Shown here: piece after piece, positions 28,199 through 30,424 of the stretch
How the letters are laid out: the number at the start of each line of letters is the position of its first letter
How positions within the stretch are numbered: position 1 is the first letter of the stretch
Origin: Actinomycetota bacterium
GTDB lineage: Bacteria; Actinomycetota; CADDZG01; JAHWKV01
Direction of reading: 5' to 3'
DNA length: 35,031 nucleotides
Assembly (NCBI GenBank): GCA_035759705.1
Contig: DASTUJ010000004.1
Span: forward strand, 1 to 35,031
Notes under the pieces: model-generated
The model's database searches: none
What the model was told of the DNA's origin: nothing
The model's input: only the letters and a program-made list of their open reading frames with translations
Made by a program: the position numbers and the translations under genes

Positions 28199-28435
28199 AT
28201 GTCGCCGAAAGCAAGAGTCGCAGCCGTGACCGCCACCGTCGTCGCAACCATCGCATTGAGCATTACCCCCGCCTCGGCCCGGATTCTCACCTCCACCGGA
28301 TGCATCGAGTGGTCGAGCGCCGGCGGCTGCGCCGTCAGCCAGACCTGCAAGGTAGACACCGATGCCCGGTATTGGAGCTGCTACACGGTTCCGACGAACG
28401 GCAGCCAACCGGTCATCGAAGGTGGCCGCTACTAA
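28199..28435 (+). CDS. Small secreted Cys-containing protein
   Basis: A 78-residue exported protein. The ATG at 28199 has AAAGGAAG seven bases upstream; the longer frame starting at 27965 is not credible because that part has no ribosome site and no protein-like character. Residues 1-27 are a signal peptide (MSPKARVAAVTATVVATIAL, then SITPASA) with an AxA cleavage site. The mature part of about 51 residues (RILTSTGCIEWSSAGGCAVS, ...) has four Cys that could form two disulfides, plus several Trp/Tyr. No family recognised. It is followed by a strong hairpin (28445-28480) and faces the SSI-domain gene convergently. It could be a small wall or extracellular peptide. Confidence 0.72.
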   Translation: MSPKARVAAVTATVVATIALSITPASARILTSTGCIEWSSAGGCAVSQTCKVDTDARYWSCYTVPTNGSQPVIEGGRY

Positions 28436-28444
28436 GCCTTCTTG

Positions 28445-28480
28445 ACACAAAGGGGCCCGCCGCAGCGGGTCCCTTTGTGT
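28445..28480. terminator. Bidirectional hairpin terminator between convergent genes
   Basis: A 16-bp stem: 28445-28460 pairs with 28465-28480, with one G-U pair and a four-base CGCA loop. ACACAAAGGG pairs with CCCTTTGTGT at the stem base. It sits 9 bases after the small secreted-protein stop and 9 bases beyond the stop of the minus-strand SSI gene, so it can serve both. Confidence 0.75.
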
Positions 28481-28488
28481 GCGTGGGC

Positions 28489-29157
28489 TCAGCCTTCGAA
28501 GTCGAAGATGACCCCGCCGGTCGCCCCGATCCCGGTGCACAGGTTTCCGAACTCCTGCTTGAAGCTGCGTGCTTCGCCCTTCCAGGTGCCTTCGGCAACC
28601 AGGACCACCGGCTTGAACTCCTTCGTGCAGATCCGATCTTCGGCCGGGACCTTCCCGACTTCCCCGTCAGCCTCCGCCAGTTGGGCACACGCCTTCTCGG
28701 CGTGCGGGTGCGAGCCGCCTGCGGGACCGCATGTAAGCGTGCTGCTGGAAAGCACGTCACCGTCCGGGTTCAGGATCCGAAGCTCAAACCTGCCGGTGCC
28801 TGCATAGCTCCCGGGCACATCGATCTTTTCGCTCCTGTCGCTCCCGATGACCTCTATGCCCTTGGTTCCGAGCAGGTGCGTGATGTTGAGGGAGACCTCG
28901 TACGGAGCCAGAACAGCCGGGCTGATGCCTCGAAGCATGCCGACCACCTCGATGCCCCAGTACTCGGGACGCTGGACGTAGATGAGAGGAGTCAGCTCAA
29001 CCGACATGTTCAGCCACGGCTTTGTGCCCGAGACGGTCAGGAGGTACTGGGGAGGGTCGCTCTCGAGAGTTGCGACCTCCGCTTTGTCGAACGTGATGAG
29101 CCTATGGGACTGAGGCGGTGCCAGGTCGCTGAAGGTCCGCAGCGCCGTTGCGTCCAT
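28489..29157 (-). CDS. Subtilisin-inhibitor (SSI)-like domain fused to an unrecognised N-terminal domain
   Basis: A 222-residue protein. Residues about 120-222 match the Streptomyces subtilisin-inhibitor fold: four Cys at 143, 157, 177 and 207, LTCGPAGGSHPHAEKACAQL, GTWKG and a closing GVIFDF. The reactive loop reads RICTKEFKPV, so by alignment to SSI (C-P-M-V) the P1 residue is Lys179, which predicts trypsin-like rather than subtilisin specificity. Residues 1-118 (SHRLITFDKAEVATLESDPP, QYLLTVSG, IYVQRPEYWGIEVVGML) are beta-rich and unknown to me. No signal peptide is visible, unlike known SSIs, which is odd for a disulfide-stabilised inhibitor. ATG 29157 has AAAGGAG seven bases upstream; the longer frame to 29181 has none. 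It is convergent with the small secreted gene. Confidence 0.82.
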   Translation of the reverse strand: MDATALRTFSDLAPPQSHRLITFDKAEVATLESDPPQYLLTVSGTKPWLNMSVELTPLIYVQRPEYWGIEVVGMLRGISPAVLAPYEVSLNITHLLGTKGIEVIGSDRSEKIDVPGSYAGTGRFELRILNPDGDVLSSSTLTCGPAGGSHPHAEKACAQLAEADGEVGKVPAEDRICTKEFKPVVLVAEGTWKGEARSFKQEFGNLCTGIGATGGVIFDFEG

Positions 29158-29482
29158 GGGTTTGCTCCTTTCTGGAGGCACCGTGGCCGAGGACAGGAAG
29201 AGAAATTAGAGACATTGGTGCCCCCGCACACGACCAGTTTGCGCGCAAGCGGCAGTGAGTTCAAGCGGGGTTTTGCCTCAAACCAGGTGATGAAAGTACC
29301 CAAGGTGCAAGGAGTTCGCCCCCAGGTAGTGGGCTCATCGATCCGGTACGAAAAGGTCCCAGAAACGCAGGGCCATTCGGCACTGGCGGCTGAAGGGGTC
29401 CGGCCGCAGACTCAACTCAGGCGGAAGTGAAGCGTCTGCCCGCCGAACGCTCTGACTAACGCCGAGGACGATAGGGACCTTC
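29158..29482. other. Gene-free divergent region between SSI-domain and beta-sandwich protein genes
   Basis: About 325 bases hold no credible reading frame. It contains the Shine-Dalgarno of the SSI gene (AAAGGAG), a perfect ten-base palindrome TTGCGCGCAA at 29239-29248, and the AGGGA before ATG 29483. Promoters for both genes must lie here, but I cannot place -10/-35 elements with confidence. Confidence 0.5.
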
Positions 29483-30424
29483 ATGCCGGGCTTCTGGAAG
29501 TCGTTGCACAAGACCGCTCGGGTTCGGATCGTGCTCGCCGCGGGAACGGTCTTGATGGTTTTGACGACCGGTGCCGTCCTCGCATTGGCCTCGCTGCAGG
29601 ATCGGCCGGCGACTGAGCAGGAACCGGCCGGCCGCACTCTGCAATCGGTTGCCCACAATGCTCTGGGAGCTCTGGAGTTACCGGAGGCCGTTGCGGCTGC
29701 ACCGCCTGCCGTGCAGGCGCCGCCCCAAGCCGTGCCGCCGCGTAGCCCGGAGAACGAGGGGATGCCCAGGGACAAGCGCAAGCTGACCAGCCTCAACCTT
29801 GCCGACGCCCCACCGAACTACACGGTCGCCTGTCCGATGTCTGCCGACGCGCGATTCCAGCAGACCACCGAGGTGGCGTGCTCCGTGCAGTCGTTCGGCA
29901 GTTACACCGGCCCCGTGACGTTGACGTGCACGCCTGAGGGTGGCCTCGGTTGCCGAGTCGATCCATCGCCCCTGGAGTTGAGTCCGAACCAGACGGTCAC
30001 TGCGAAGATCGTGATCACCGTGCCCGGAACGGTGGCTGCGGGCGGGTACACCCTGACGATAGGCACCGACGGTCCGAACCCGGAGGTGACTGCGCACGGC
30101 TCCCGCTATGCCCTGAGGGTGACCGTTCCGCCCTACCCGTCGTTCACCATCGGGTGTCCCTCCAACCCGCCGCTGCCGGAACCTGTGACCTTCTGTATTG
30201 TCACGGCCGAGGCTGGGTTCTCAGGGAGCATCAATGCGTCGATCGAGCCACAGAGACCGGGTATATCGGTGAGTTCTTCGGCTGCCCCTCCCGGAGGCCC
30301 GATGGCGGGTCTGTTTCGAATTTCGCTCGACCCGGCCCAACTTGGGCCCGGAACGCATTCGTTTACGGTTACCGGAACGAGCGGGGAGATTTCAAGGAGC
30401 AGCCCGCTTCAGATCACGATTTAG
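29483..30424 (+). CDS. Membrane-anchored extracellular protein with two beta-sandwich domains
   Basis: A 313-residue protein. A basic start is followed by a span at about 15-36 (RIVLAAGTVLMVLTTGAVLALA), then an Ala/Pro-rich tether (EAVAAAPPAVQAPPQAVPPR) to about residue 105. Two beta-sandwich (Ig-like or CARDB-like) domains follow: residues about 112-218 (YTVACPMSADARFQQTTEVA, ending YALRVTVPPY) and about 220-313 (FTIGCPSNPPLPEPVTFCIV, ending SSPLQITI). Each has paired Cys and the periodic P-x-G/T strands typical of surface proteins. No catalytic motif and no sortase signal; anchoring is by the N-terminus. The function is unknown, perhaps wall-associated adhesion or scaffolding. ATG 29483 has AGGGA 6-10 bases upstream. 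Confidence 0.75.
   Translation: MPGFWKSLHKTARVRIVLAAGTVLMVLTTGAVLALASLQDRPATEQEPAGRTLQSVAHNALGALELPEAVAAAPPAVQAPPQAVPPRSPENEGMPRDKRKLTSLNLADAPPNYTVACPMSADARFQQTTEVACSVQSFGSYTGPVTLTCTPEGGLGCRVDPSPLELSPNQTVTAKIVITVPGTVAAGGYTLTIGTDGPNPEVTAHGSRYALRVTVPPYPSFTIGCPSNPPLPEPVTFCIVTAEAGFSGSINASIEPQRPGISVSSSAAPPGGPMAGLFRISLDPAQLGPGTHSFTVTGTSGEISRSSPLQITI

Follow-up and report, generated by a model that had tools for sequence, protein, structure and literature searches.

A two-domain protease inhibitor of the Streptomyces subtilisin inhibitor (SSI) type, without a signal peptide and with a second domain at its N-terminus (the N-domain), is confirmed as a real gene feature of the window, the whole 35,031-nucleotide stretch of actinomycetotal DNA analysed here. 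SSI inhibitors are, by textbook description, secreted single-domain proteins. What is new here is a signal-less, two-domain form of this known inhibitor family, together with an undescribed family to which the N-domain belongs. Most of the SSI-like proteins reported in the literature are extracellular and short (PMC5238444), and the signal-less N-domain/SSI layout was not found described in the literature searched, an absence that carries little weight. We consider the product, with a probability of about 0.6, to be a serine-protease inhibitor whose N-domain is a module for recognition or placement, and which is made without a Sec or Tat signal and acts slightly more probably outside the cytosol than within it. 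The features on which this reading rests are as follows.

28489..29157, minus strand: whole gene, two-domain SSI-type inhibitor without signal peptide, 222 aa (open reading frame, Pfam, PDB sequence match, hydropathy)
28810..29157, minus strand: N-domain, residues 1-116, uncatalogued all-beta domain (no family match; AlphaFold2 model)
28492..28797, minus strand: SSI domain, residues 121-222 (PF00720 and PDB SSI match)
28618..28629, minus strand: predicted reactive-site segment C177-T-K179-E180, P3 to P1', scissile bond K179-E180 (alignment to the SSI reactive site)
29158..29181, minus strand: ribosome-binding-like AGAAAGGAGC directly 5' of the inhibitor ATG

The reading frame extends from an ATG at 29155-29157 to a stop codon at 28489-28491, and its product begins with MDATALRTFSDL and ends in GGVIFDFEG. 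An alternative in-frame GTG at 29181 would add eight hydrophilic residues, and the sole in-frame extension upstream, of about 16 residues, is hydrophilic as well. Since the codon-position GC of the gene (0.62/0.47/0.80) resembles that of its neighbours and its two halves agree, no frameshift or join is visible. With either start codon, no hydrophobic N-terminal stretch suited to a Sec or Tat signal is present; the maximum 12-aa hydropathy is 0.87, compared with 1.58 in a classical SSI protein and 2.06 in a signal-bearing relative of the N-domain, in agreement with the initial annotation, which had reported no signal peptide. Its proviso that a signal might have been lost through a frameshift does not apply, as a protein from another actinobacterial lineage (L037, described below) has the same signal-less layout. 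Three further features lie nearby. A 69-aa protein encoded at 28226-28435 (plus strand), with a signal-like N-terminus followed by four cysteines and no Pfam match, converges with the SSI gene; between the two, at 28449-28478, lies a G+C-rich inverted repeat (GGGCCCGCCGCAGCGGGTCCC), a possible two-way terminator, which the terminator scan did not call. On the other side, 29483-30421 (plus strand), divergent from the SSI gene, encodes a predicted membrane-anchored or secreted protein with weak Ig-like Pfam matches only.

The SSI or subtilisin inhibitor-like family PF00720, which we take to be MEROPS I16, matches residues 136-205 (E 4.5e-22; 78.3 bits against a curated cut-off of 23.9) and is the sole Pfam family in the protein. 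In a PDB sequence search, Streptomyces subtilisin inhibitor chains were the nearest structures, with E-values down to 5.9e-13 over residues 139-220. All four SSI cysteines (C143, C157, C177, C207) align with those of the SSI chains, in which the disulfides are C35-C50 and C71-C101, so that the proposal of an SSI-type domain with its full cysteine set stands. K179 aligns with the position that follows Cys-Pro in SSI, namely P1 (SSI residue 73), and C-T-K-E of the inhibitor aligns with C-P-K-V of chain 3sic, the best PDB match, which bears out the predicted Lys at P1. That this Lys is a special feature is not supported by six classical SSI genes from plasmid records, whose P1 segments read CPM, CTK, CTR, CSN, CTR and CTK and thus carry Lys or Arg in 4/6; L003 and L004 have CTR and CPL, respectively. 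Because Lys or Arg at P1 is common in such ordinary relatives, the Lys of the inhibitor is unremarkable and, as judged from these sequences, a basic P1 is ordinary in the SSI family. Cross-inhibition between SSI and trypsin has long been known; PMC5238444 cites work on 'subtilisin-trypsin inhibitors from Streptomyces' that was published in 1994.

The border between the N-domain and the SSI domain falls at about residues 118-121, and the figure of roughly 118 residues given in the initial annotation was correct. Its description of the N-terminal part as beta-rich and unrecognised is likewise upheld. When the N-domain was compared with Pfam, NCBIfam, PHROGs, PADLOC and PDB sequences, none of these five libraries yielded a family, and a hit to PI3K_rbd (E 0.12-0.17), below the family cut-off, was taken as chance. 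AlphaFold2, run with a 13-sequence alignment, modelled the N-domain as all-beta with a mean pLDDT of 88.9, and residues 141-222 of the SSI half with block-mean pLDDT of 34-56, the low values being due to the absence of SSI relatives from the alignment. A fold search with the full-length model gave no information because of this poorly modelled half. Foldseek with the confident N-domain model found no significant match among solved and viral structures, none falling below E 0.27, and the fold class is therefore left without a name. A search for a phage or viral origin gave no match either. One hit, L009 (E 4e-4), was discarded, being antisense to a protein-kinase-like open reading frame.

Among the genomes sampled, N-domain carriers made up 10/251 of Streptosporangiaceae, 17/301 of Micromonosporaceae, 2/245 of the order Nostocales and 1/247 of the class Nitrospira, counts that include reference genomes; overall, the domain occurs in Actinomycetota, Cyanobacteriota, Nitrospirota and Pseudomonadota. 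The domain occurs with several partners and also by itself. Stand-alone proteins of about 110-145 residues, mostly without signals, are present in Nonomuraea, Actinoplanes, Nostocales (Nostoc) and one Methylococcales MAG; those of Nonomuraea, Nostoc and Actinoplanes share 44-53% identity with residues 1-116 of the inhibitor and have the same all-beta domain, but, unlike the window protein, they have no inhibitor domain. In five Micromonosporaceae and a Nitrospira MAG (L065-L068, L070 and L020), the N-domain is joined to an uncatalogued C-terminal domain of about 105 aa with PTPGY and PQGINP motifs, whose pattern recalls PrcB_C, yet Pfam gave no match. In L076 it is joined to a CnaB-like repeat, assigned by reading, and L074 is a member with a Sec-like signal. 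In addition, a signal-less gene with two PG_binding_1 domains adjoins the stand-alone N-domain gene in 8/17 Micromonosporaceae carriers (e.g. L049:10056-10544), either immediately upstream on the same strand or right beside it. When neighbours of N-domain genes were compared between genera, none was common to them. In Nonomuraea cavernae (L022:3660-5201), an insertion of about 1.2 kb interrupts a stand-alone N-domain gene; the minus strand of the insertion, by reading, resembles an IS605-type TnpB gene. The N-domain is an undescribed domain family that is widespread, patchy and of a mix-and-match nature; as an uncatalogued, confidently modelled beta-domain found in four phyla with several partners, it merits a family entry.

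The fusion itself is conserved beyond the window. The N-domain profile search recovered L037, a 229-aa protein from a 6.1-Mb Streptosporangiaceae genome (G424), which has the same N-domain and SSI layout, the same CTK-E site, 4/4 SSI cysteines and no signal, along with two additional N-domain cysteines that are absent from the window protein. Another genome of the window's genus (G002) holds a C-terminal piece of the orthologue, the last 54 matched residues, with the N-half lost at a contig end; this fragment has Lys at P1 (CPK-I) and is adjoined by dtd, which in the window lies about 2.3 kb off on the same side. These two genomes of the genus are the only ones among 24 of the window's class that carry an SSI domain. 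In the SSI-domain tree, in which the G002 row is a fragment, a single clade (98/97) unites the window protein with L037 and G002 and excludes the eight classical SSI proteins, which bear signals. This topology is compatible with a single origin of the fusion, a point on which the N-domain tree gave no resolution. A comparison of the genes beside the fusion in the window and at L037 showed that they differ, with no conserved partner or target gene. That a branch without signal and with two domains is conserved points either to a role of the SSI fold inside the cell or to another means of positioning it.

SSI domains block serine proteases as tight, slowly released substrate mimics. By analogy with SSI, the disulfide-braced loop C177-T178-K179-E180 would insert, in the manner of a substrate, into a trypsin- or subtilisin-type active site, Lys179 would sit in the S1 pocket, and the inhibitor would not be released. 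A Lys at P1 fits trypsin-like enzymes, and subtilisin tolerates it as well, as in the Cys-Pro-Lys of 3sic. The N-domain would tether the inhibitor to some site or binding partner and would not itself inhibit. Such a recognition or placement role, read from its distribution and not from any matched fold, is most likely given its shuffling between partners and its stand-alone use. As for the site of action, the evidence is divided: the absent signal points inside the cell, while the kept disulfide cysteines, the wall-binding neighbours and the Sec-signal relative point outside. The PG_binding_1 neighbour and the Sec-like signal of L074 hint at action outside the cytosol, and the strict retention of the disulfide cysteines makes action there, after lysis or via some other route, slightly more likely, although this preference is weak and cysteine conservation could instead reflect folding history.

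The chief alternative is that the protein remains in the cytosol as a regulator that keeps a trypsin- or subtilisin-type protease inside the cell in check; the N-domain would then bind either the client or that protease. This is a serious possibility, to which we nonetheless give somewhat lower odds than even. Both intact fusions lack a signal peptide, as do most stand-alone N-domain proteins, and intracellular protease inhibitors do exist, although PMC3901451 describes them as rare and would expect them to have no disulfides. Against this reading, four disulfide cysteines would here have been retained in a reducing compartment. Moreover, relatives of the N-domain include the Sec-signal protein and adjoin peptidoglycan-binding proteins, and no protease gene adjoins the inhibitor gene.

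A broader and rather speculative extension of the placement role, which we hold to be improbable, is that the N-domain represents a new family of modules for placement or export, which bacteria of at least four phyla transfer, by fusion or as a gene pair, to inhibitors, wall-binding proteins and other beta-domains whose exit from the cell needs neither Sec nor Tat. If true, the SSI fusion would deliver a protease inhibitor along a route not known before. One conceivable route, that the signal-less inhibitor is loaded through its N-domain as cargo of a contractile injection system and shot out, is very unlikely. The window genome does possess contractile-system clusters on contigs C84 and C208, and an N-domain gene lies 1 kb from a contractile cluster in one genome of Nostoc, the distance being about 13 kb in one genome of Micromonosporaceae; C84 carries tube, baseplate-like and PAAR-like genes and C208 sheath-like and tube genes (L099, L100). 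Given the clusters in the window genome and the Nostoc gene 1 kb away, tail-tube genes (PF06841) were counted in carriers and other genomes. In Nostocales, they were present in 3/3 carriers versus 1/8 sampled non-carriers (p 0.024, a small sample), but among the 301 Micromonosporaceae the figures were 14/17 carriers versus 182/284 others (one-sided p 0.098). A seemingly positive early comparison (14/17 versus 8/17, a small sample) was thus removed by the full base rate of 196/301. In Streptosporangiaceae, only 1/12 carriers had such genes, with none in the second SSI-fusion genome, and in the window genome the inhibitor gene and the contractile clusters are on different contigs. As a general route of exit, contractile injection finds no support in these counts. 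Finally, a chimeric assembly or a functionless fused fragment, conceivable in a draft genome of 225 contigs, is refuted by L037, an independent homologue that shares the two-domain layout, and is further opposed by the G002 orthologue fragment, normal codon use in both halves and the ribosome-binding-like site, leaving it a negligible chance.

Besides the stand-alone N-domain proteins, two known systems are closest to the placed inhibitor that we favour. One is IPI/BsuPI of Bacillus subtilis, which has been proposed to restrain Isp1 and is likewise a proposed signal-less protease inhibitor with a beta-rich domain, whose homologues occur in several domain layouts (PMC3901451); unlike the window protein, it has no SSI domain. 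The N-domain itself was rejected as a BsuPI/IPI domain, there being no Pfam match, best PDB fold matches of E >= 0.3, and no IPI among the 50 matches listed. The other is the SSI family (PF00720), with which the C-terminal domain agrees in its Pfam match, its four cysteines and its basic-P1 reactive site, and from which the window protein differs in the 116-aa N-domain in front, the lack of a signal peptide and its place in an SSI clade separate from the eight classical proteins.
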